Source of the DNA: Natrinema ejinorense
GTDB taxonomy: Archaea; Halobacteriota; Halobacteria; Halobacteriales; Natrialbaceae
Direction: 5' to 3'
Length of the DNA: 64,000 nucleotides
Assembly: GCF_002494345.1 (NCBI RefSeq)
Contig: NZ_NXNI01000001.1
Span: forward strand, 2,852,001-2,916,000
Under the pieces are notes generated by a model, which saw only the letters and a program-made list of their open reading frames with translations, was not told the DNA's origin and ran no database searches. Made by a program: the position numbers and the translations under genes. Positions 52,778 through 63,727 of this stretch are shown piece by piece; within the stretch, counting starts at the first letter, position 1, and each line of letters opens with the position of its first letter.

Positions 52778-52957
52778 TCAGTCTGGTGGTCCCGGACGGA
52801 CGACGATCGTTCGATGGCCGGATTCGAGGCGATCGAGAAACCAGAGGACGATCAGCACGGCGACCACTCCGAGGACGATCTCCAGCAGCGTTTCGACCCC
52901 GAGTGTGGCGCGCGTATCGATCAGACGTTCACGGGAGCGTGACTGTGTGAAAAACAC
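52778..52957 (-). CDS. Small membrane protein
   Basis: The 59-codon frame has a single hydrophobic helix (TLLEIVLGVVAVLIVLWFL, about 22-40) and a basic/hydrophobic tail. A GTG at 52957 is the best start, since no ATG lies in frame. Haloarchaea have many one-helix proteins of the ETLL-x-IVL type; this may be one. Weak start signals keep confidence low. Confidence 0.4.
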   Translation of the reverse strand: MFFTQSRSRERLIDTRATLGVETLLEIVLGVVAVLIVLWFLDRLESGHRTIVVRPGPPD

Positions 52958-53009
52958 ACCGTCTCGTCGTCGGAAAGACCTATTTAGACGGCCCCGGCAT
53001 GTCATAGTA

Positions 53010-54125
53010 ATGGACGTATGGGGGCTGCGAGCACTGGTTTGCGTGCTCGTAGTGGTGGGCTGTTCGGTCGCGTTCGTCACGGCACCCGGCGTGGCCGGGG
53101 CGGACGCCGGTACCCAGTCGGCAGCCTTCCAGGAAGATGCGGACCAATCGCTGGAACTCGAGGACGCCGATCGAATTCACATCGACGTCTTCATCGCCGA
53201 GAACGGCACTGCGAACGTAGCCGTCGATTATCAGTTCCATCTCGACGACGGAAACAGTTCCCCGGCGGAGTGGGAGCGGCTCCGGGAGGACATCGAATCG
53301 AATCCGGAGACGTACACCGCTGCCGAGCGGGCGAAGTGGAACGAAACCCTCGCCGAGGGCGAAAACCGGACGGATCGGGAGATGAATCTCTCGAACGTCT
53401 CGATCACCACGGAAACGAATTCCGCGCCACGGGAGGTCGGCCACGCAGTCGTCACGTTCCAGTGGTCTAACTTCGCGCTCGTCGTGTGGAAACAGATAGA
53501 GGCGGGAGCCGCGCTCGCCGGACTGACGCTCGACGACGGGACGGAGTTGCAGTTCCACTGGCCGGAGGGGTATACCGTCTATCAGAACGGGGGCGAGCGG
53601 CAGATCGACCCACCGCCGAGCGAGCCACTCGACGGCTCGGCCATCTGGCGGGGCGAGTCGACGTCGTTTACCGAGAACCAGCCACGGATCACCTTAGTCG
53701 AGAGCGGAAACACGACTTCGGAGTCGGAGCCGACCGACCGGGGTCCGGCGATGCCGTGGACGATCGTCGTGCTGGCGCTTGCGCTGCTCGCGACCGTCGG
53801 CACGGTCGGCTGGCTGGTCGGCCGCAATCGTACAGACACCGTAAGCGACGACGGCTCCGGACCCCCACAATGGACCGACGGCGCAACTGCCTCCCGGTCG
53901 GATTCGTCCGGCGGTCCGCCCCCGGAACTACTAAGCAACGAGGAGCGGGTGCTGCGGCTGCTCGAGGAACACGGCGGCCGGATCAAACAACAGGCAGTCG
54001 TCTCGGAACTCGAGTGGACCGAGGCCAAGACCAGTCAGGTCGTCGGTGAACTGCGTGAAAACGACGAGATCGAAGTGTTCCGGATCGGGCGGGAGAACGT
54101 CCTGGCGTTGCCCGACGAGGAGTAG
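53010..54125 (+). CDS. Membrane-anchored winged-helix regulator
   Basis: The 371-residue protein has a signal peptide (about 5-30), an extracytoplasmic beta-rich domain (about 45-245; HIDVFIAENGTANVAVDYQF, FQWSNFALV, FHWPEGYTVY), a membrane helix (about 252-272) and a cytoplasmic winged-helix domain (about 315-368; LLSNEERVLRLLEEHGGRIKQQAVVSELEWTEAKTSQVV). It resembles haloarchaeal DUF7345/DUF7343 proteins thought to transmit outside signals to DNA. The ligand is unknown. Confidence 0.8.
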   Translation: MDVWGLRALVCVLVVVGCSVAFVTAPGVAGADAGTQSAAFQEDADQSLELEDADRIHIDVFIAENGTANVAVDYQFHLDDGNSSPAEWERLREDIESNPETYTAAERAKWNETLAEGENRTDREMNLSNVSITTETNSAPREVGHAVVTFQWSNFALVVWKQIEAGAALAGLTLDDGTELQFHWPEGYTVYQNGGERQIDPPPSEPLDGSAIWRGESTSFTENQPRITLVESGNTTSESEPTDRGPAMPWTIVVLALALLATVGTVGWLVGRNRTDTVSDDGSGPPQWTDGATASRSDSSGGPPPELLSNEERVLRLLEEHGGRIKQQAVVSELEWTEAKTSQVVGELRENDEIEVFRIGRENVLALPDEE

Positions 54126-54226: not shown

Positions 54227-54235
54227 CTTTTAATA
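54227..54235 (+). promoter_or_regulatory. TATA-like box of the Arg-rich leader ORF
   Basis: CTTTTAATA ends 24 bp before the ATG at 54260, giving the standard leaderless spacing. Confidence 0.5.
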
Positions 54236-54259
54236 CCGTGGATCCTCACCGTTTCAGCA

Positions 54260-54352
54260 ATGAGCTACTCCGTCGGTACCGCATTCGCCGTGGCCGGTAC
54301 CGGCGGGGCCGTCGCTCGGCGGCGACCGCGGCGATTCCGACCGGGCCTTTGA
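54260..54352 (+). CDS. Arg-rich leader peptide-like ORF upstream of argG
   Basis: The 30-codon frame reads MSYSVGTAFAVAGTGG then AVARRRPRRFRPGL. Six of the last eleven residues are Arg (CGG, CGG, CGA, CGG, CGA, CGA). A TATA-like box 24 bp before the ATG predicts a leaderless transcript. A short hairpin (CGGGC-CTTTGA-GCCCG, 54342-54357) has the stop codon in its loop. A second hairpin with a T-rich arm follows near 54397-54420, then argG with its own promoter. The layout is like bacterial attenuation leaders whose ribosome stalls on the end-product amino acid. That function is inference; a conserved micro-protein is the alternative. Confidence 0.5.
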   Translation: MSYSVGTAFAVAGTGGAVARRRPRRFRPGL

Positions 54353-54463
54353 GCCCGTACTCTACCTACTCCCCCGATCCCGGTTCGTTCCAACGTTCCC
54401 GAAATCGCAGTATTTTCGGTTAGCAGCGCCTCTACCTACAATTTACGCGATCGAAACCAATGA

Positions 54464-54471
54464 GCTTAAGT
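54464..54471 (+). promoter_or_regulatory. TATA-like box of argG
   Basis: GCTTAAGT ends 28 bp before the argG ATG. It follows the Arg-rich frame by about 110 bp, so argG may be read from both this promoter and the leader promoter. Confidence 0.45.
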
Positions 54472-54499
54472 CTCTCCTGGGGTTTCACTCGAGTACCAT

Positions 54500-55699
54500 A
54501 TGACCCGCGTGGCACTTGCGTTTTCGGGGGGCCTGGACACGACCGTCTGTGTCCCGCTGCTCGAGGAGGAATACGGATACGACGACGTGATCGGCGTTAC
54601 CGTCGACGTCGGCCAGCCGGCCGAAGAGTTCGACGAAGCCGAGGAAACCGCCGAGGCACTCGGCCTCGAACACTACGTCGTCGACGCACGGGCGGAATTC
54701 GCACAACTCTGTCTCGAGAGCGTTCGCGCGAACGCGACCTATCAGGGCTACCCGCTCGGCACGGCGCTGGCCCGTCCCGTGATCGCGGAAGCGATCCTGG
54801 AGGTCGCCGAGGAACAGGACTGTACAGGTATCGCCCACGGCTGTACGGGCAAGGGCAACGACCAACTGCGCTTCGAGGCCGTCTGGCGCGACTCGGATCT
54901 CGAGGTCATCGCCCCCGTGCGCGAACTCGGACTCACCCGCGAGTGGGAGAAGGAGTACGCCGCCGAGAAGAACCTCCCCGTCGAGGGTGGCAGCGGCGGC
55001 GACTGGTCGATCGACACCAACATCTGGAGCCGCTCGGTCGAGGGCGACGATCTCGAGGACCCCAACTACGTCCCGCCGACGGATATCTACGCGTGGACTG
55101 AGGATCCCTCCGACGAGACCGAGGAGATCGACATCTCCTTCGAGAACGGCTACCCCGTCGCCGTCGACGGTCAGGAGTACGAGCCGGTCGAGCTCGTCGA
55201 ATACCTCAACGAACTCGCCGGCGGGTACGGCGTCGGCCGCACAGACATGATGGAAGATCGCATGCTCGGGCTGAAGGTCCGCGAGAACTACGAACACCCA
55301 GGTGCGACGACGCTGCTCAACGCCCACGAGGCCCTCGAGGGGCTCGTCCTCACCCAGGAGGAGCGTCAGTTCAAGACCCAGATCGACCAGCAGTGGTCCC
55401 AGAAAGCCTACGAGGGCCTGATCGACGCGCCGCTCGTGAGCGCGCTCGAGGGCTTCATCGACGAGACCCAAAAGCGCGTCACGGGGACCGTGACGATCCG
55501 CTTCGAGGGCGGGCAGGCACGTCCGGTCGCTCGCGACAGCAAGTTCGCGGCTTACTCCGCGGAACACGCTTCCTTCGATACCGAGACGGTCGGCAAGATC
55601 AAACAGGAAGACGCCACCGGCGTCGCGAAGTACCACGGCTTCCAGCGCCGCCTCGCGAACGAGGCGATCGCTGCAAACGCCACGGAAGACGACGAGTAA
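54500..55699 (+). CDS. argG: Argininosuccinate synthase
   Basis: The 399-residue enzyme joins citrulline and aspartate using ATP. The N-type ATP pyrophosphatase loop is AFSGGLDTTVC (about 7-17). Further conserved segments are GYPLGTALARP, GIAHGCTGKGNDQLRFE (about 112-128), the VEGGSGGDWSIDTNIW substrate region and the C-terminal GKIKQEDATGVAKYHGF. The ATG follows a TATA-like box by 28 bp. It is the first enzyme gene of the arginine locus and lies 2 bp upstream of argH. Confidence 0.95.
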   Translation: MTRVALAFSGGLDTTVCVPLLEEEYGYDDVIGVTVDVGQPAEEFDEAEETAEALGLEHYVVDARAEFAQLCLESVRANATYQGYPLGTALARPVIAEAILEVAEEQDCTGIAHGCTGKGNDQLRFEAVWRDSDLEVIAPVRELGLTREWEKEYAAEKNLPVEGGSGGDWSIDTNIWSRSVEGDDLEDPNYVPPTDIYAWTEDPSDETEEIDISFENGYPVAVDGQEYEPVELVEYLNELAGGYGVGRTDMMEDRMLGLKVRENYEHPGATTLLNAHEALEGLVLTQEERQFKTQIDQQWSQKAYEGLIDAPLVSALEGFIDETQKRVTGTVTIRFEGGQARPVARDSKFAAYSAEHASFDTETVGKIKQEDATGVAKYHGFQRRLANEAIAANATEDDE

Positions 55700-55701
55700 T
55701 C

Positions 55702-57195
55702 ATGACCGAGGAGAGCACTCGAGATGGCGGCGAGCGGGATTCCTCGTCGGATCAGAGATCCGACGGCGTCGTCCGCCGAGACCGTTTCAGCGGCGGCCCC
55801 GCCCGGAGTTTCCTCTCCTCGCTCGCGGCGGACGAACGGATTTTCGTGGCGGATCTCGAGGTCGACCGCGCACACACGGTCATGCTCGCCGAGCAGGACA
55901 TCGTCGACGACGACGTGGCCGGCGAGATCCTCACGGCGCTGGACGCGATCGAGGTCGACGGCCACGGCTCGCTGCCGGACGGCGAGGACGTCCACGAGGC
56001 CATCGAGACGGCCGTCATCGAACGCATCGGCGCGGACGGCGGCAAGATGCACACCGCGCGATCGCGCAACGACGAGGTCGCGGCCTGTATCCGCTATCGC
56101 TTGCGCGAGGACGTCCTCGAGGCCGTCGAGACGACGCTCGCGCTCCGCGAATCGCTGGTGGCCGTCGCGGAAGAACAGACGGAGACGGTCATGCCCGGCT
56201 ATACCCACCTCCAGCCCGCCCAGCCGACCACCGTGGCTCACTGGGCGCTGGCCTACGAGGGAGCCGTCCGCCGCGACACGGAACGCTTGCTCGCGGCCTA
56301 CGGCCGGATCAACCAGTCGCCACTGGGCGGGGCCGCGTTCGCTGGAACGACGTTCGATATCGACCGCGAGCGCACGGCCGAGCTGTTGGGCTTCGACGGT
56401 GTCGTGGAGAACTCGATGGACGCCGCCTCGAGTCGAGACTTCCTGCTCGAGACGACGCAGGCGCTGTCGACGCACGCGACGACGCTGTCGGGGCTGGCCG
56501 AGGACGTGATCATCTTCGCGAACCGCGGCTTCGTCGATCTGGCGGACGACTACTCCTCGACGTCGTCGATCATGCCCCAGAAGAAGAACCCGGATACGCT
56601 GGAGCTCGTCCGCGCGGTCGCGGGCGACGCGGCCGGCGGCGTCCAGGGGCTGACGACGACGCTGAAGGGACTGCCCCGCGCGTACAATCGCGATCTGCAG
56701 CGGGCGACGACCCACGCCTGGGAGACCGTCGACGCGGTGACCGAGGCCAGCGAGGTCGCAGCGGGGGCGGTCGCGACGGCCGACTGGAACGAGGACGTCC
56801 TCGAGGCGGAGGCCGGCGAGGGGTTCTCGACGGCGACCGGCGTCGCGGACCTGCTGGCCGCCAACGGGTTGCCGTTCCGGACCGCGCACGAGTTGGTGGC
56901 CATCGCTGCCGAGGGCGGTGCGAACTACGACGCCCTCGAGGCCGCGGCCCAGGACGTCCTCGGCGAGTCGCTCGAGGCAGCCGTCGATCCCGCAGCCGTC
57001 GAAGACGCGCTCGATCCGGTCCAGAGCGTTGCGAGCCGGAACTCGCAGGGCGGGCCAGCACCCGAGGCGGTCGAGACCCAACTCGAGTCGGCCCGCGATG
57101 CACTCGCGATCGACGCGGACGCGCTCGAGGAGGTGAGCGTCCCGCTCGAGTCGGCTCGCGAGGCGCTCCGTTCGGAGGTGAACGGGTATGTCTGA
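55702..57195 (+). CDS. argH: Argininosuccinate lyase
   Basis: The 497-residue enzyme releases arginine and fumarate. After a haloarchaeal acidic leader, motifs are GGKMHTARSRNDEVA (about 113-127), MPGYTHLQPAQPTTVAHW (catalytic His loop, about 164-181), and the superfamily signature SSIMPQKKNPDTLELVR (about 289-305). The final 60 residues are more variable. It starts 2 bp after argG, so both are cotranscribed. A stem ATCCCC-GCGA-GGGGAT follows the stop by about 70 bp. Confidence 0.95.
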   Translation: MTEESTRDGGERDSSSDQRSDGVVRRDRFSGGPARSFLSSLAADERIFVADLEVDRAHTVMLAEQDIVDDDVAGEILTALDAIEVDGHGSLPDGEDVHEAIETAVIERIGADGGKMHTARSRNDEVAACIRYRLREDVLEAVETTLALRESLVAVAEEQTETVMPGYTHLQPAQPTTVAHWALAYEGAVRRDTERLLAAYGRINQSPLGGAAFAGTTFDIDRERTAELLGFDGVVENSMDAASSRDFLLETTQALSTHATTLSGLAEDVIIFANRGFVDLADDYSSTSSIMPQKKNPDTLELVRAVAGDAAGGVQGLTTTLKGLPRAYNRDLQRATTHAWETVDAVTEASEVAAGAVATADWNEDVLEAEAGEGFSTATGVADLLAANGLPFRTAHELVAIAAEGGANYDALEAAAQDVLGESLEAAVDPAAVEDALDPVQSVASRNSQGGPAPEAVETQLESARDALAIDADALEEVSVPLESAREALRSEVNGYV

Positions 57196-57267
57196 GTGTG
57201 AGACTCGCGCACGGCGGATCGGACGGCGGCCGCTGTCGCGGGCCGTCGAACGGCCGCTTCGGCGACG

Positions 57268-57283
57268 ATCCCCGCGAGGGGAT
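57268..57283 (+). terminator. Hairpin after argH
   Basis: ATCCCC-GCGA-GGGGAT is a perfect 6-bp stem followed by the AT-rich TAATTA. It may end the argG-argH transcript before the next promoter. Confidence 0.4.
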
Positions 57284-57388
57284 TAATTACCGACTTCATG
57301 ATATGTCAAAGTAGACCTGCGGTAACATAGCCTCCACGGACCGTTAGAGTGGCGTGCAGTTAGTATAATTTTGCTGTTAAGTTCGAAG

Positions 57389-57396
57389 GCTTTAAG
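57389..57396 (+). promoter_or_regulatory. TATA-like box of lysW-argF operon
   Basis: GCTTTAAG ends 27 bp before the lysW ATG. It shows that the second half of the arginine locus can be transcribed separately. Confidence 0.5.
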
Positions 57397-57410
57397 GGAG
57401 CCGGGCTCCC
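57396..57410. promoter_or_regulatory. Perfect palindrome at the lysW transcription start
   Basis: GGGAGCC-G-GGCTCCC directly follows the TATA-like box, where RNA polymerase would sit. This is a strong candidate repressor operator; the protein is unknown. Confidence 0.45.
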
Positions 57411-57423
57411 ACGTGCGAGTACA

Positions 57424-57588
57424 ATGACCGAATGCGTCGAGTGTGGGGCCGAACTGTCCCTGCACGACGATCTGGAAGCGGGAGAGATCGTTGACTGTAC
57501 GACCTGTGGAGCAGAGCTTGAAGTCGTCGATACCGAGCCGCCAGTCCTCGAACGAGCGCCCGAGCTCGAAGAGGACTGGGGTGAGTGA
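57424..57588 (+). CDS. lysW: Amino-group carrier protein LysW/ArgW
   Basis: The 54-residue protein has a zinc ribbon (TECVECGAEL and VDCTTCGAEL, about 2-33) and the diagnostic C-terminal EDWGE. The gamma-carboxyl of the last Glu accepts glutamate (or alpha-aminoadipate) so that intermediates stay carrier-bound and cannot cyclise. It is too short for many gene finders but is the key protein of the pathway. It has its own TATA-like box and a palindrome upstream, and precedes argX. Confidence 0.95.
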   Translation: MTECVECGAELSLHDDLEAGEIVDCTTCGAELEVVDTEPPVLERAPELEEDWGE

Positions 57589-57679
57589 CCTTGCAGACGG
57601 GCACGACACTGGCCCGCGTTGCGTCCACGACTCGAGGGGCTCGTAGCACGCCGCTCGTCACATCCAGGAGGTGGCTCGC

Positions 57680-58555
57680 GTGAACGTCGGCATACTCTAT
57701 TCACGGATCCGCAAAGACGAGAAACTCCTGTTGAGCGAGCTTCGCGAGCGCGACCACGAGGTCACGAAGATCGACGTTCGCAAGCAAACCTTCGACATCT
57801 CGGAGGCACCCGCGGCGTTCGACGGCCTCGACATCGTCGTCGACCGCTGTCTCGCGACGAGCCGGAGCTTGTACGCCACGCAGTTCTTCGAATCGTACGG
57901 GATTCCCGTCGTCAACAGCCACGAGACCGCGGACATCTGCGCCGATAAGGTAAAGAACAGTCTCGCACTCGAGAAGGCCGGCGTTCCCACGCCCGCCACG
58001 AAAGTCGCCTTCACGAAGGAAACGGCCATGGCGGCCATCGAAGAGTTTGGCTATCCGTGCGTCCTCAAACCCGTCGTCGGCTCGTGGGGTCGCCTGATGG
58101 CCAAGATCGACTCCGAGTCGGCCGCCGAGGCCATCTTGGAACACAAGGCGACGCTGGGCCACTACGAGCACAAGGTGTTCTACGTGCAGGAGTTCGTCGA
58201 GAAACCCGGCCGCGACGTTCGCGTACTCGCGATCGACGGCGAGCCCATCGCGGGGATGGTCCGGTCGTCCGATCACTGGATCACCAACGCCGCCAAGGGA
58301 GCGGAGACGGATGTCTTCGAGATCGACGACGAGGCGAGAGCGCTGGTTCGGAAGGCGAGCGACGCCGTCGGCGGCGGACTCCTCGGTGTGGACCTCATGG
58401 AAACCGGCGATTCGTACACGGTCCACGAGGTCAACCACACGGTGGAGTTCAAAGCACTCGACGGTGCGGTCGAGACCGACGTCGCGGGGACCGTCGTCGA
58501 CTGGCTCGAGACGAAAGCGCAAGCGGCGGATCCGGAACTCGAGGTGAGCGCCTGA
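57680..58555 (+). CDS. argX: LysW ligase ArgX/LysX
   Basis: The GTG at 57680 (MNVGILYSRIRKDEK) is chosen because the Shine-Dalgarno-like AGGAGG at 57666-57671 lies 8 nt upstream; a GTG at 57671 would overlap it. The 291-residue ATP-grasp enzyme has PCVLKPVVGSWGRLMAKI (about 127-144) and GLLGVDLMETGDSYTVHEVNHTVEF (about 238-262, metal and ATP ligands). It ligates glutamate, or aminoadipate for lysine, to LysW. Which substrate is used cannot be settled by eye; argG/argH favour arginine. Confidence 0.9.
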   Translation: MNVGILYSRIRKDEKLLLSELRERDHEVTKIDVRKQTFDISEAPAAFDGLDIVVDRCLATSRSLYATQFFESYGIPVVNSHETADICADKVKNSLALEKAGVPTPATKVAFTKETAMAAIEEFGYPCVLKPVVGSWGRLMAKIDSESAAEAILEHKATLGHYEHKVFYVQEFVEKPGRDVRVLAIDGEPIAGMVRSSDHWITNAAKGAETDVFEIDDEARALVRKASDAVGGGLLGVDLMETGDSYTVHEVNHTVEFKALDGAVETDVAGTVVDWLETKAQAADPELEVSA

Positions 58556-59631
58556 TGGCGGTCGACGCCGAACCCGGCTCGGCCGAGCGCGCCGAGACGG
58601 TCACCGCGAGCGTCATCGGCGGCTCCGGCTTTACCGGCGGCGAACTCCTGCGACTGCTCGCCGGCCATCCGAATTTCGAGATCACGGAGGTCACGAGCCG
58701 TTCGAAGGCCGGCAAGAGCGTCGGCTCCGTCCACCCGCCGTTGCGGGGGACGGACCTGCGCTTTACCGAACCCGAGGACCTCGCGTCCGTCGACGTCCTC
58801 TTCGCGGCGACGCCACACGGCGTTTCGATGGGCCAGATCGACGAGTTCTTCGAAATCGCGGATACCGTGGTCGACCTCTCGGCGGACTTCCGCCTCGAGA
58901 ACGAGGCCCAGTACGACGAGTGGTACGACGGCCACGAGGCCCCCGAGTATCTCGACAAGGCGGAGTACGCGCTTCCCGAGATCAACCGCGACGATCTCGA
59001 GGGCGCGGAACTCATCGCCGGCGGCGGCTGTAACGCCACCGCGACGATCCTCGGGCTCTACCCGCTGTTCGAACACGGGATCTTAGAGGGCGGCGAGCAG
59101 ATCGTCGTCGACGTGAAGGTCGGCTCCTCCGAAGGGGGAGCCGGCGGCGGCGAGGCCTCGAGCCACCCCGAGCGCTCGGGCGTCGTCCGCCCCTACGCGC
59201 CGACGGGCCACCGCCACGAGGCCGAGATCGAGCAGTTCCTCGACACCTCGGTTGCCTTCACCTGCCACGCCGTGGACATGATCCGCGGTGCCAGCGCGAC
59301 GAATCACGTCTTCCCCTCGGGCCCCGTCTCGAAGGGCGACCTCTGGAAGGCCTATCGGGGCTGCTACGAGGACGAACCGTTCGTCCGCATGGCCGCCGGC
59401 GGCTCCGGCGTGTATCGGTATCCGGAGCCCAAGGCGGTCGCCGGAACGAACCTCGCCGAGGTCGGCTTCGAACTCGACCCCTCGAACAAGCGCATCGTCG
59501 TCTTCTCGGCGATCGACAACATGATGAAAGGCTCCGCGGGACAGGCGGTCCACGCCGCCAACGTCGCGCTGGGCTTCGAGGAGACGGCCGGACTCGAGTT
59601 TACGGGACTGCACCCCGTGGGGGCACCATGA
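58555..59631 (+). CDS. argC: LysW-bound N-acyl phosphate reductase (ArgC/LysY)
   Basis: The ATG shares one base with the argX stop (TGATG). The 358-residue NADPH enzyme has the Rossmann loop SVIGGSGFTGGELLRLLAGHPN (about 20-41) and the catalytic Cys in AGGGCNATATILGLYP (about 158-173). SADFRLENE and a C-terminal His-containing substrate region follow. It reduces the carrier-bound gamma-glutamyl phosphate to the semialdehyde. Its stop overlaps argB by 4 bp. Confidence 0.93.
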   Translation: MAVDAEPGSAERAETVTASVIGGSGFTGGELLRLLAGHPNFEITEVTSRSKAGKSVGSVHPPLRGTDLRFTEPEDLASVDVLFAATPHGVSMGQIDEFFEIADTVVDLSADFRLENEAQYDEWYDGHEAPEYLDKAEYALPEINRDDLEGAELIAGGGCNATATILGLYPLFEHGILEGGEQIVVDVKVGSSEGGAGGGEASSHPERSGVVRPYAPTGHRHEAEIEQFLDTSVAFTCHAVDMIRGASATNHVFPSGPVSKGDLWKAYRGCYEDEPFVRMAAGGSGVYRYPEPKAVAGTNLAEVGFELDPSNKRIVVFSAIDNMMKGSAGQAVHAANVALGFEETAGLEFTGLHPVGAP

Positions 59632-60494
59632 CTGTAGTGGTCAAGATCGGCGGCGCACGCGCCGTCGATCCCGAAGGCGCACTCGCGGACGTGGCCGCGC
59701 TCGTCGAGGACGGCGAAGACGTGGTTCTCACCCACGGCGGCTCGACCGCCGTCGACGAGACCCTCGAAGAGCTGGGCGAGGAACCCACCTACGTCGAGAC
59801 GCCCGGCGGCGTCGTCGGCCGGTTCACCGACGAGCGGACGATGGACGTGTTCAAGATGGTGATGCCGGGCAAGCTCAACACCGATCTGGTCGAGAGCCTG
59901 CACAACGAGGGCGTCGACGCCGTCGGCCTCTCGGGAACGGACGGCAAACTGCTCGAGGGCAAACGCAAGTCCGCCGTCCGCGTCAAAGAGGACGGCAAGA
60001 AGAAGATCAAGCGCGGCGACCACTCGGGGACGATCGAGTCGGTCAACGCCGACCTGCTCGAGACGATGCTCTCGGGCGGCTACACGCCCGTCGTCTCCGT
60101 CCCAGTGCTCGGACGGGAGAAGGAGGGCGGCTACACCGCGGTCAACGCCGACGCCGACCGCGCCGCCGCCGCAGTCGCCGGCGCGCTCGGTGCCGACTTG
60201 ATCGTCCTCACAGACGTGTCGGGGATCTACGAGGACCCCGACGACGAGTCGACGCGCATCGAGTCGGCGTCCACGCCCACCGAGTTCGACGCCGTGAAAG
60301 ACGCCGCCGAGGGGTTCATGACCAAGAAGGTCATGGCCGCCGAGGAGGCGCTCGAGGGCGGTGCGGCGTCGGTGATCGTCGCGACCGCAAACGCCGACGA
60401 GCCGATCACAGCCGCGTTAGCGGGCGAGGGGACGACCCTCGAGCCCGGCGTGCTCGCGGACGCAACTGACGCGGAAACGGAGGCCACACAATGA
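59628..60494 (+). CDS. argB: LysW-bound glutamate kinase (ArgB/LysZ)
   Basis: This 288-residue member of the amino-acid kinase family starts TVVVKIGGARAVDPEG with the phosphate loop KIGG. THGGSTAVDETLEELG follows, then TPGGVVGRFTDERTMDVFKMVM and NADADRAAAAVAGALGADLIVLTDVSGIYEDPDD (nucleotide and metal region). It phosphorylates the carrier-linked glutamate. A basic stretch (GKRKSAVRVKEDGKKKIKRGD) fits contact with acidic LysW. ATGA overlaps with argC and argD indicate tight coupling. Confidence 0.93.
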   Translation: MTVVVKIGGARAVDPEGALADVAALVEDGEDVVLTHGGSTAVDETLEELGEEPTYVETPGGVVGRFTDERTMDVFKMVMPGKLNTDLVESLHNEGVDAVGLSGTDGKLLEGKRKSAVRVKEDGKKKIKRGDHSGTIESVNADLLETMLSGGYTPVVSVPVLGREKEGGYTAVNADADRAAAAVAGALGADLIVLTDVSGIYEDPDDESTRIESASTPTEFDAVKDAAEGFMTKKVMAAEEALEGGAASVIVATANADEPITAALAGEGTTLEPGVLADATDAETEATQ

Positions 60495-61645
60495 GTGACC
60501 TGGATTTCGTCTCCGGTAGCAAGCCGATCGGTCTCGAGAAAGGTGAGGGCCCGTATCTCTACACCGCCGACGGCACGGAGTACGTAGACGCCGGTGCGAG
60601 CTACGCCTGCACGCCGCTGGGCCACTGTCACCCCGCGGTCGTCGACGCGGTTCAAGAGCAGGTCGGCGAGCTGACCTTCGTCGACTCCTCGTATCCCGTT
60701 CGGGCGCGCGAGGACGCCTACGCCGCGCTCGTCGCGGCCGCGCCCGACGGACTCGAGGGGGCCTGGTTCTGTAACTCCGGGACCGAGGCCAACGAGGCCG
60801 CGCTGAAGTTCGCCCGGTCGGCGACCGGCGAGTCGAAGATCGTCGCCGCGACCCGCTCGTTCCACGGGCGGACGATGGGATCGCTCGCCGCGACCTGGAA
60901 GGACAAGTACAAAGAGCCATACGAGCCACTGGCCGGCGACATGGAGTTCGTCCCCTACGGCGACGGCGAGGAACTGGCGGCCGCCGTAGACGACGAGACG
61001 GCGGCGGTCATCCTCGAGCCGATTCAGGGCGAAGGCGGGATCAACGTCCCGCCTGCGGGCTACCTCGAAACCGCCCGCGAGGTCACCGACGAGGCCGGCG
61101 CGGCGCTCGTCCTGGACGAGGTTCAGACCGGCATGGGCCGCACCGGCGAGATGTGGGCCTGTCAGAACGCGGGCGTCACGCCCGACGTACTCACGACGGC
61201 GAAGGGCCTGGGCAACGGCCTGCCCGTCGGCGCGCTCGCGGTGCAAGACTGGATCGCCGACGGCGCGGCGTCGCACAACGCCACGTTCAGCGGCGGCCCC
61301 GTCGTCGCCGCTGCGGTCCACGCGACCGTCTCGACGCTGGTCGAAGAGGACTGGCCCACCCACGCCGCCGAAATCGGCGACTATCTCGTCACCGAACTCG
61401 AGGCGGCGCTGGGCGAGGCGGTCCGTGAGGTCCGCGGCGAGGGCCTCCTCGTCGGCGTCGAGTTGAAGCGTGGCGCGAACCGTGTCGCCCGCGATCTGGC
61501 GATGAACCACCAGATACTGGCGCTTCCCGCCGGCCGGACCGTACTGCGCCTGCTGCCACCGCTCGTGATCGGTGAGGACGAAGCGGACCAGCTCGTCGAC
61601 GCACTGACAGCGGTCATCGCACCTGCAGCCGACTCCGAATCATGA
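60491..61645 (+). CDS. argD: LysW-bound semialdehyde aminotransferase (ArgD/LysJ)
   Basis: The 384-residue class-III PLP enzyme has GAWFCNSGTEANEAALKFAR (about 92-111) and HGRTMGSLAATWK. VILEPIQGEGGINVP, LVLDEVQTGMGRTGEMWAC, and the PLP Lys in TTAKGLGNGLPVGAL (Lys about 239) follow. It converts the carrier-bound semialdehyde to ornithine (or lysine) still attached to LysW. ATGA overlaps on both sides place it within a single coupled operon. Confidence 0.94.
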   Translation: MSDLDFVSGSKPIGLEKGEGPYLYTADGTEYVDAGASYACTPLGHCHPAVVDAVQEQVGELTFVDSSYPVRAREDAYAALVAAAPDGLEGAWFCNSGTEANEAALKFARSATGESKIVAATRSFHGRTMGSLAATWKDKYKEPYEPLAGDMEFVPYGDGEELAAAVDDETAAVILEPIQGEGGINVPPAGYLETAREVTDEAGAALVLDEVQTGMGRTGEMWACQNAGVTPDVLTTAKGLGNGLPVGALAVQDWIADGAASHNATFSGGPVVAAAVHATVSTLVEEDWPTHAAEIGDYLVTELEAALGEAVREVRGEGLLVGVELKRGANRVARDLAMNHQILALPAGRTVLRLLPPLVIGEDEADQLVDALTAVIAPAADSES

Positions 61646-62754
61646 GCGCGACCATGGAGGACACCGCCGACGTCTCGCTCGAGGCGGCCCGCGACCTCCT
61701 GATCGATCTCGTCTCGACGCCCTCTCCCTCCGGCGAGGAGGAGAGGGCAGCACGGCGGCTCGTCGAGTTCTTCGACGCCTACGGCCGCGAGGCCTGGATC
61801 GACGACGTCGGCAACGTCCGCGCGCCGGCCGACGACGCCGTCCTCCTGACCTCCCACGTCGACACCGTCCCCGGCGAGATCCCGGTCCGCGTCGACACTG
61901 CGGACGCCGCGGACGAGGACGCCGAGGTCGCCCGCGAAGGCGAGGAGATCCTCTGGGGGAGAGGCAGCGTCGACGCGACCGGCCCGCTGGCCGCGATGGC
62001 CGTCGCGGCCGTCCGGACCGGCGTCTCCTTCGTCGGCGTCGTCAAAGAAGAGACGAGTTCGCTGGGGGCCCGCCATCTCGTCGCGGAGCGCGATGCCGAA
62101 CCCGATGCCGTCGTCAACGGCGAGCCAAGCGGTGCGACGGGCATCACGCTGGGCTACCGTGGCTTCCTCGACGGGACCTACGTCGCGACCAGCGAATCGG
62201 GCCATACCTCTCGACCCGAGCCAAACGCCATCCAGCACGCGACGAACTGGTGGACGAGCGTCGAGGACGCGTTCGAACAGGACGAGTACACGCCGGTCTT
62301 CGAGCGCGTAACCGCCAAACCCGTCGACATCGACGGCGGGATCAGCGACGACGGCCTCTCCGTCGAGGCCACCCTCGAGGCCCAGTTGCGGGTGCCACCC
62401 TCGCTAGACGTCGAGACGGTCCGCGAGACGGCCGAAGCGGAACTCGAGATCGGGACCGTCTCCTGGGACGAGCCGATCCCGCCGGTGATGGAGAGTCCCC
62501 GTACCGAAGTCGCCCGCGCGTTCCGGGCGGCCATCCGCGCGGAGGACGGCGACCCGCGTCTCCTCCGCAAAACCGGGACCAGCGACATGAACCTCTATGC
62601 CGACGCCTGGGACTGTCCGATGGTTACCTACGGCCCCGGCAACTCGGCGCTCGATCACGCACCCGACGAACGGCTCTCACTCCCGGAGTTCGACCAGTCG
62701 GTCGCGGTGCTCGAGCGGGTCGCGACGACGCTGCGCGGAGGGGACGACGAATGA
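61642..62754 (+). CDS. argE: LysW-ornithine/lysine hydrolase (ArgE/LysK)
   Basis: The 370-residue M20 metallopeptidase has PSPSGEEERAARRLVEF, LLTSHVDTVPGEIPV (first metal ligands), LWGRGSVDATGPLAAMAVAA (bridging Asp), VVKEETSSLGARHLV (catalytic Glu) and TGTSDMNLYA. It frees ornithine from the carrier. This replaces a separate acetyltransferase recycling enzyme, and no argJ is present. The stop overlaps the ATG of a 20-codon Arg-rich frame. Confidence 0.92.
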   Translation: MSATMEDTADVSLEAARDLLIDLVSTPSPSGEEERAARRLVEFFDAYGREAWIDDVGNVRAPADDAVLLTSHVDTVPGEIPVRVDTADAADEDAEVAREGEEILWGRGSVDATGPLAAMAVAAVRTGVSFVGVVKEETSSLGARHLVAERDAEPDAVVNGEPSGATGITLGYRGFLDGTYVATSESGHTSRPEPNAIQHATNWWTSVEDAFEQDEYTPVFERVTAKPVDIDGGISDDGLSVEATLEAQLRVPPSLDVETVRETAEAELEIGTVSWDEPIPPVMESPRTEVARAFRAAIRAEDGDPRLLRKTGTSDMNLYADAWDCPMVTYGPGNSALDHAPDERLSLPEFDQSVAVLERVATTLRGGDDE

Positions 62755-62813
62755 CGGCGACGGCAACGCGCCCGCTGCCAGCAACACGAACACGGACACG
62801 CGGTGATCAGTAA
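62751..62813 (+). CDS. 20-codon Arg-rich linker ORF between argE and argF
   Basis: The frame starts in an ATGA overlap with the argE stop and reads MTATATRPLPATRTRTRGDQ. It ends TAATG, where the last A is the first base of the argF ATG. Arginine makes up 5 of 20 residues. Both overlaps suggest that ribosomes pass from argE through this frame into argF. Such coupling could make argF translation sensitive to arginyl-tRNA supply. It may instead be a neutral spacer; no homologue is recognised. Confidence 0.45.
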   Translation: MTATATRPLPATRTRTRGDQ

Positions 62814-63727
62814 TGACGACCGAGCCGACACACTTCCTCGACATCGACGACGTTTCGCGCGACGAACTGCTGACGATCCTCGAGCGAGCCGAGGCGTACA
62901 AACGCGCCCAGCGAACGGGTGCGGACCACGCCGATCTCGACGGGCAGACGCTGGGGATGATCTTCCAGAAGCCGAGCACGCGAACCCGCGTCTCCTTCGA
63001 GACGGGGATGACCCAACTGGGCGGCCACGCCGTCTTCCTGGGGGAAGACGACATCCAGCTCGGGCGAGGAGAGCCGCTGAAAGACACCTCGCGGACGCTC
63101 TCGCGGTACGTCGACGCGGTGATGGCCCGCGTGTTCAAACACGAGAACATCGAAGTGCTCGCGGAGTACTCCTCCGTGCCGATCGTCAACGGACTCACCG
63201 ACGACGCCCATCCCTGCCAGACGCTCGCGGACCTGTTGACGATCCGGGAACACGAGGGCGGGTTCGACGACGTCTCCGCGGTCTGGATCGGTGACGGCAA
63301 CAACGTCGCCCAGTCGTTCGCGCTCGGCGCTGCGCTGACCGACATCGATCTGACGGTCGCGACGCCGGCGGGCTACGAGATCGACGACGACGTCCTCGAG
63401 CGCGCCCGCGAACTCGGAGGCGATCCGACGGTCACGACCGATCCCGTCGAGGCAGTCACCGACGCCGACATCATCTACACGGACGTCTGGATCAGCATGG
63501 GACAGGAGGACGAACGCGACGTCCGAATGAACGACTTCGAGGGGTTCCAGGTCGGTTCGGATCTGCTCGAGCACGCCCCCGAGGCGTCGGTTATGCACTG
63601 CCTTCCGGCGCACCGCGGCGAGGAAATCACCGACGAGATCATCGAGAGCGATCGGTCGATCGTGTTCGATCAGGCGGAAAACCGGCTGCACGCCCAGAAA
63701 GCGCTGCTGAGTTGGCTGCTCGAGTAA
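62813..63727 (+). CDS. argF: Ornithine carbamoyltransferase
   Basis: The 304-residue enzyme condenses ornithine and carbamoyl phosphate to citrulline. Hallmarks are FQKPSTRTRVSFE (S-T-R-T-R, about 51-63), GLTDDAHPCQTLAD (H-P-C-Q, about 126-139), WIGDGNNVAQS and VMHCLPAHRGEE (about 259-270). It ends ALLSWLLE. It is the last gene of the operon, and its final 49 bp recur exactly 211 bp downstream. A hairpin with a T tract 5 bp after the stop is a likely terminator. Confidence 0.95.
   Translation: MTTEPTHFLDIDDVSRDELLTILERAEAYKRAQRTGADHADLDGQTLGMIFQKPSTRTRVSFETGMTQLGGHAVFLGEDDIQLGRGEPLKDTSRTLSRYVDAVMARVFKHENIEVLAEYSSVPIVNGLTDDAHPCQTLADLLTIREHEGGFDDVSAVWIGDGNNVAQSFALGAALTDIDLTVATPAGYEIDDDVLERARELGGDPTVTTDPVEAVTDADIIYTDVWISMGQEDERDVRMNDFEGFQVGSDLLEHAPEASVMHCLPAHRGEEITDEIIESDRSIVFDQAENRLHAQKALLSWLLE
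63678..63726 (+). repeat. 49-bp direct repeat, copy 1 (argF 3' end)
   Basis: The sequence from AAAACCGGCTGCACG to TGGCTGCTCGAGTA is identical to 63889-63937. It encodes the last residues of ArgF and includes the first two bases of its stop. Confidence 0.9.

Follow-up and report, generated by a model that had tools for sequence, protein, structure and literature searches.

A conserved arginine-rich leader ORF before argG in haloarchaea, with phenylalanine and tryptophan counterparts before pheS and trpS: candidates for ribosome-mediated attenuation in Archaea

The window analysed here is a stretch of 64,000 nucleotides from Natrinema ejinorense (contig NZ_NXNI01000001.1, positions 2,852,001 to 2,916,000), in which argG heads a full arginine operon of the type that uses a LysW/ArgW carrier protein (Table 1). 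Within this operon the argH frame was read within 55393-57195 and its start is approximate, and argD is the best NCBIfam match for its product, though below that family's cut-off. The gene upstream of the leader region (52905-54125) had no NCBIfam match; it looks membrane-anchored, with a helix-turn-helix-like C-terminus.

A short ORF with its ATG at 54260 and its TGA at 54350-54352 precedes argG, and 147 nt separate its stop from the argG ATG (54500). A sequence-only reading of this DNA had described a 30-codon frame with a TATA-like box 24 bp upstream, a terminal stretch with six Arg codons in eleven, a stop codon in a hairpin loop, and a second hairpin with a T-rich arm upstream of argG. 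All of these features were located. The C-terminus, RRRPRRFRPGL*, holds six Arg among its last 11 residues, and since the box TTTTAATA lies 24 bp before the ATG, the leader frame would be leaderless. Absent from that reading was another TATA-like box, CTTAAGTC, 35 nt ahead of the argG ATG. A basal second promoter at 54465 is therefore probable for argG in N. ejinorense, in which case the leader would add to argG expression and not switch the gene fully.

Table 1. Features of the N. ejinorense argG locus (window coordinates)
Feature	Position	Strand	Basis or remark
Leader-promoter TATA-like box TTTTAATA	54228..54235	+	similar box in 150/157 distinct regions
Leader ORF, 30 codons plus TGA, MSYSVGTAFAVAGTGGAVARRRPRRFRPGL	54260..54352	+	predicted leaderless; sequence reading and cross-genome comparison
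Arg run RRRPRRFR, codons CGG CGG CGA CCG CGG CGA TTC CGA	54317..54340	+	conserved, CGA-biased across the set
Hairpin CGGGC-CTTTGA-GCCCG, stop codon in loop	54342..54357	+	sequence and covariation among loci
Second hairpin CCGAAA..TTTCGG, T-rich 3' arm, possible end of leader transcript	54398..54419	+	sequence; comparable hairpins elsewhere
TATA-like box CTTAAGTC, likely second promoter for a near-leaderless argG transcript	54465..54472	+	conserved; box in 122/125 long-spacer loci
argG, argininosuccinate synthase	54500..55699	+	NCBIfam TIGR00032 and NF010392 above cut-off
Remaining arginine operon: argH, lysW/argW, argX (lysX-like), argC, argB, argD, argE, argF	55700..63727	+	NCBIfam

Conservation was assessed in argG upstream regions from 125 genomes of the family and 80 named haloarchaeal loci, which together gave 157 distinct regions. 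Within the genus, the 381-bp region matched all 24 other genomes searched, and each of the 24 kept the frame together with the Arg run, as in MSHSVGTTLAVLGTDGTVARRRPRRLRRAF and MSQSVGTMLADFGTDGTVARRRRRRAL. Across the whole set, 150 of the 157 regions had a TATA-like box 30-34 nt ahead of an ATG, as fits a leaderless start, and an ORF that ended before argG with at least 3 Arg in its last 13 codons. The other seven comprised three longer frames with the Arg run deeper inside, three ORFs whose upstream region did not match the TATA pattern, and one contig edge. N-termini were unrelated between genera, as in Haloferax (MATRSTLATFAPLRAAAVRRRRPAL) and Halorussus (MTGTRGSGTFAVAGSRGSALVLVPRRRPGRP), while the Arg run was kept. 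Close relatives, and the class Halobacteria as a whole, thus retain both the frame and the Arg run, so that two outcomes which would have spoken against the proposal, a frame that is not conserved and replacement of the Arg codons in close relatives, did not occur. No convincing Arg leader was seen at 30 argG loci from other Halobacteriota.

A stricter test, applied to 156 distinct regions, called for an ATG, a TATA box placed for a leaderless start, and a stretch of 10 codons with at least 4 Arg. It was passed by 139 regions, compared to 0-3 in each of ten dinucleotide-preserving shuffles and none on the reverse strand; these controls and the genome scan described below exclude a chance origin. 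Codon changes were then counted in 29 distinct 30-codon leaders, among which sequence pairs are not independent. In the leader frame, 1816 codons with a single change were synonymous against 1291 expected, whereas the other two frames gave 1138 against 1124 and 841 against 1028 expected, so that the synonymous bias is confined to the leader frame. CGA made up half of the leader Arg codons (491/975) but only 8% (12/148) of those in the arg operon of the window. Judged from these sequence patterns, the leader frame is translated and its cognate Arg codons are conserved.

The arms of the hairpin around the stop codon vary among lineages with pairing retained: GGGC/GCCC in Natrinema, GGCC/GGCC in Haloferax and GGGGT/ACCCC in Halorussus. 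When stems around the stop were counted without preselection, at least 4 pairs formed in 134 of 153 loci, against 71% when 3' arms were re-dealt among loci, a control weakened by the likeness of most hairpin arms. In 116 loci the stop lies in the loop; these gave 23 distinct arm pairs, with two to three pair types at each of the first three pairs, which are compensatory changes. Over these 23 arm pairs, 118 of 138 cells pair, compared to 89.7 +/- 4.8 with arms re-dealt (maximum 108 in 2000 re-deals); this count leans towards structure, as stems of at least 4 pairs were preselected, while the compensatory pair types are independent of that selection. In seven loci, some of them Natronorubrum-like, the frame with the Arg run passes the hairpin by about 15-25 codons and the hairpin sequence is kept, which shows that the hairpin is important in its own right. 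The second hairpin with its T-rich arm occurs in the Natrinema lineage and many relatives, though its sequence is not uniform. A comparable hairpin lies about 80 nt before argG in most loci with two promoters, and 88% score above shuffles.

Two architectures were distinguished by the spacer between the leader stop and argG. With spacers of at least 130 nt, a TATA-like box stood just before argG in 122 of 125 loci, whereas none was present in the 20 compact loci, whose spacers are about 81-120 nt (Haloarchaeobius, Halorussus, Halomarina, Halobacterium, Halovenus, Halocatena and others). Seven further short-spacer loci with a TATA-like box proved to be those with frames running past the hairpin. 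As the leader promoter is the only visible argG promoter in the compact lineages, leader and gene are there tied in cis.

To look beyond argG, about 1.7 of the 4.5 Mb of the N. ejinorense genome was scanned for short ORFs that have a TATA-like box at leaderless spacing and precede a long ORF. The 140 candidates were ranked by residue clustering only, blind to gene function. Rank 2 was MAAESQVRASDGTRPQRPRSGFGFFFAR before pheS, rank 4 was MTSALGWQWRWDAPSRADSIVAAGDVA before a second trpS, and rank 7 was the argG leader. The leader residue therefore fits the gene in three independent cases, Arg with argG, Phe with pheS and Trp with trpS. The top-ranked mini-ORF, MCGWMWCSLWWVNTTCL, has a GTG start and lies before a 1518-aa glutamate-synthase-like ORF (contig C1 of this genome, about 147340-147640). 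All 12 same-genus genomes searched retain this region, with 69-89% identity in the stretches that matched, and it appears to be structured; as Trp is mismatched to a glutamate-synthase-like gene, it may be a conserved RNA and not a leader peptide.

The Phe leader contains GFGFFFAR* (contig C1, ATG near 3282155, minus strand). It was found in all 30 Natrialbaceae loci examined, where a hairpin GCCCGG-TGA..CCGGGC usually encloses the stop. Most of the other haloarchaeal families sampled have it too, with losses. In the Natrialbaceae loci examined, pheS had no TATA-like box of its own, and the Phe codons were near-perfectly complementary to AAGCGAATG, which lies over the pheS start codon. At argG and at most pheS leaders, the leader stop thus falls in or close to the loop of a hairpin that adjoins the cognate codons. 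The Trp leader (locus C1:3096026-3096889, minus strand) contains WQWRW, starts with GTG and has a stem around its Trp codons. It recurs with RWRW or WRW in other families and CWRW in Haloferax, where a stem CCGCTC..GAGCGG contains or adjoins the Trp codons. Several haloarchaea carry the second trpS on a plasmid.

Published transcripts of Haloferax volcanii include a 26-aa uORF before pheS and a 23-aa, 2743-Da uORF before trpS HVO_A0127 (Babski et al. 2016, PMC4983044), and these dRNA-seq data mark no second start site at either gene. In H. mediterranei and H. larsenii the trpS leader is likewise 23 aa long, with masses of 2703 and 2728 Da. The published start sites at pheS and trpS agree with the Phe and Trp leaders. 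From the study's table of uORFs in long 5'-UTRs argG is missing; the distance from leader to argG in Haloferax, 215 nt, is within the range examined. The search does not find leaders everywhere: none was found directly before hisG (28 loci), at ilvB (30 loci and three wider stretches) or at trpE (14 upstream stretches of about 4.5 kb each). As these biosynthetic genes are without a leader, the device appears to be selective.

Taken with moderate confidence, our best explanation is that the ORF encodes an arginine leader peptide, through which the translating ribosome tells the argG operon how much charged tRNA-Arg is available. The leaderless transcript would start at or beside the leader ATG and be translated immediately. 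With arginine plentiful, the ribosome would cross the Arg run, reach the stop inside the hairpin and open that hairpin, and the leader transcript would then end before argG, perhaps at a T-rich site or through FttA. With arginine scarce, the ribosome would stall in the Arg run, the stop-codon hairpin could form adjacent to it, and more transcripts would extend into argG. For end-product control of this kind the hairpin must favour expression, possibly as an antitermination signal, or act as a pause hairpin like the 1:2 hairpin of E. coli trpL. Transcription in H. volcanii terminates at T stretches, and one hairpin that was assayed stopped 59% of transcripts (PMC7237163). In archaea, a proposed role of FttA-dependent termination is to police the coupling of transcription to translation (PMC11616081).

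The interpretation given in the sequence-only reading is supported as regards the leader peptide, while the attenuation step itself stays an inference. Independent support for a leader peptide comes from the Phe and Trp versions found at pheS and trpS, but no mutually exclusive structures were detected. Competing pairings between the Arg codons, the hairpin, the spacer and the argG start were no better for cognate than for non-cognate combinations in all segments tested, and when compact loci were folded with a ribosome positioned at either the stop or the Arg codons, no consistent switch emerged. As no co-evolving alternative pairing was found, we do not file the leader as a trpL-type attenuator and regard it as trpL-like up to the sensing step. 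The promoter-like box before argG in most lineages also weighs against this explanation, as an upstream terminator would not control transcripts from it, and so does the absence of argG from the H. volcanii uORF table.

The main rival is translational control, in which the same Arg-sensing leader acts on the translation or stability of a leader-argG mRNA, the stalled or terminating ribosome altering access to the argG start or protecting the RNA. The lack of a bacterial-type terminator switch would suit it, as would a gap between leader and argG of merely 81-120 nt in compact lineages and the complementarity at the pheS start in Natrialbaceae. At argG, however, cognate pairing between leader and start was no better than non-cognate pairing (difference in the compact group -1.6 kcal/mol, t = -1.4, n = 20); the pairing at pheS hardly varies, hence shows no covariation, and is not retained in other families; and two-promoter lineages would have much argG mRNA without the leader. 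We consider this reading unlikely, though it stands closest to our own. Less probable again is that the ORF is an independent small gene whose Arg-rich peptide or transcript acts in trans or interferes with the argG promoter, its position reflecting co-regulation. Most lineages have separate promoters for leader and argG and, in between, a possible terminator-like hairpin, which is consistent with such a gene, but only a run of one amino acid persists between genera while the N-termini do not, the compact lineages have no other visible argG promoter, and the existence of Phe and Trp versions at pheS and trpS agrees with a codon sensor and not with a single peptide function.

Arginine itself, and not uncharged tRNA, might stop the ribosome through the nascent peptide, as with the fungal arginine attenuator peptide. 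An arginine-specific leader before an arginine gene is what this would predict, and basic runs can slow ribosomes; arrest peptides, however, conserve residues outside the run, whereas here the run alone is kept, the Phe and Trp leaders have the same layout, and the CGA bias is a codon feature that a nascent-peptide sensor does not need. This makes such a sensor very improbable. We give hardly any credence to a conserved GC-rich RNA structure with the open frame as a by-product. The covarying hairpin, retained even where the frame passes it, would be expected of such a structure, but the frame-specific synonymous bias, the fixed spacing from TATA box to ATG and the UUC- and UGG-rich sister leaders would not. 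Known RNA families were rejected as the identity of the leaders, as Rfam, including the T-box covariance model, gave no match at E up to 1 on the argG, pheS and trpS loci, a result that also counts against a structure alone.

We think it likely that the three leaders belong to a general haloarchaeal system of leaderless, residue-specific leaders in which the first ribosome senses tRNA charging. Downstream expression would be decided by the stop-codon hairpin together with archaeal termination or translation, and not by a bacterial antiterminator switch; this would amount to ribosome-mediated attenuation in Archaea. A full-text literature search returned no description of amino-acid leader peptides in archaea, in line with the sequence-only reading, in which none for arginine was known to have been described in haloarchaea; subscription journals were largely outside its coverage, and an earlier report may exist. 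The H. volcanii start-site study, pointing to the scarcity of 5'-UTRs, concluded that haloarchaea do not typically use structured leaders for control (PMC4983044). Here a leaderless start appears to be used to put a sensor ORF ahead of the gene, suggesting that archaea, like bacteria, may sense amino acids through a ribosome reading a short leader. The leader set makes coupling between ribosome and RNA polymerase testable as an archaeal gene regulator in the genetically tractable H. volcanii, with three different amino acids (Arg, Phe and Trp) as internal controls. The leaders also mark a class of genes of 22-35 codons that annotation easily overlooks.

The closest published observations are the H. 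volcanii uORFs in long 5'-UTRs, which share with our leaders the mapped starts and the 26-aa pheS and 23-aa trpS frames; the section consulted describes them as low-pI small proteins and mentions neither a residue run, attenuation nor an argG leader (PMC4983044). The sensing principle proposed here is that of the bacterial textbook; the host domain and the leaderless start differ, and the output step probably differs as well. T-box riboswitches, which stand ahead of pheS, trpS and biosynthetic genes, likewise monitor tRNA charging but need no leader translation. In fungi, the arginine attenuator peptide (arg-2, CPA1 uORF) provides arginine-related uORF control before an arginine gene. It acts through a conserved nascent sequence and not an Arg run, unlike the haloarchaeal argG leader, which conserves the Arg run only and has N-termini unrelated between genera. 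The E. coli leaders trpL, hisL and pheM (before pheST) are bacterial ribosome-mediated attenuators with amino-acid leader peptides. The haloarchaeal leaders differ from these in their predicted start without a 5'-UTR from a TATA promoter, in showing no detectable mutually exclusive antiterminator and terminator, and in that the controlled gene often has a second promoter. By sequence organization they appear to share with them a short leader ORF in cis with a run of cognate codons before a biosynthetic or tRNA-synthetase gene. A further common trait is the first hairpin, which adjoins the cognate codons and encloses the leader stop codon in its loop, as the trpL 1:2 pause hairpin of E. coli does.
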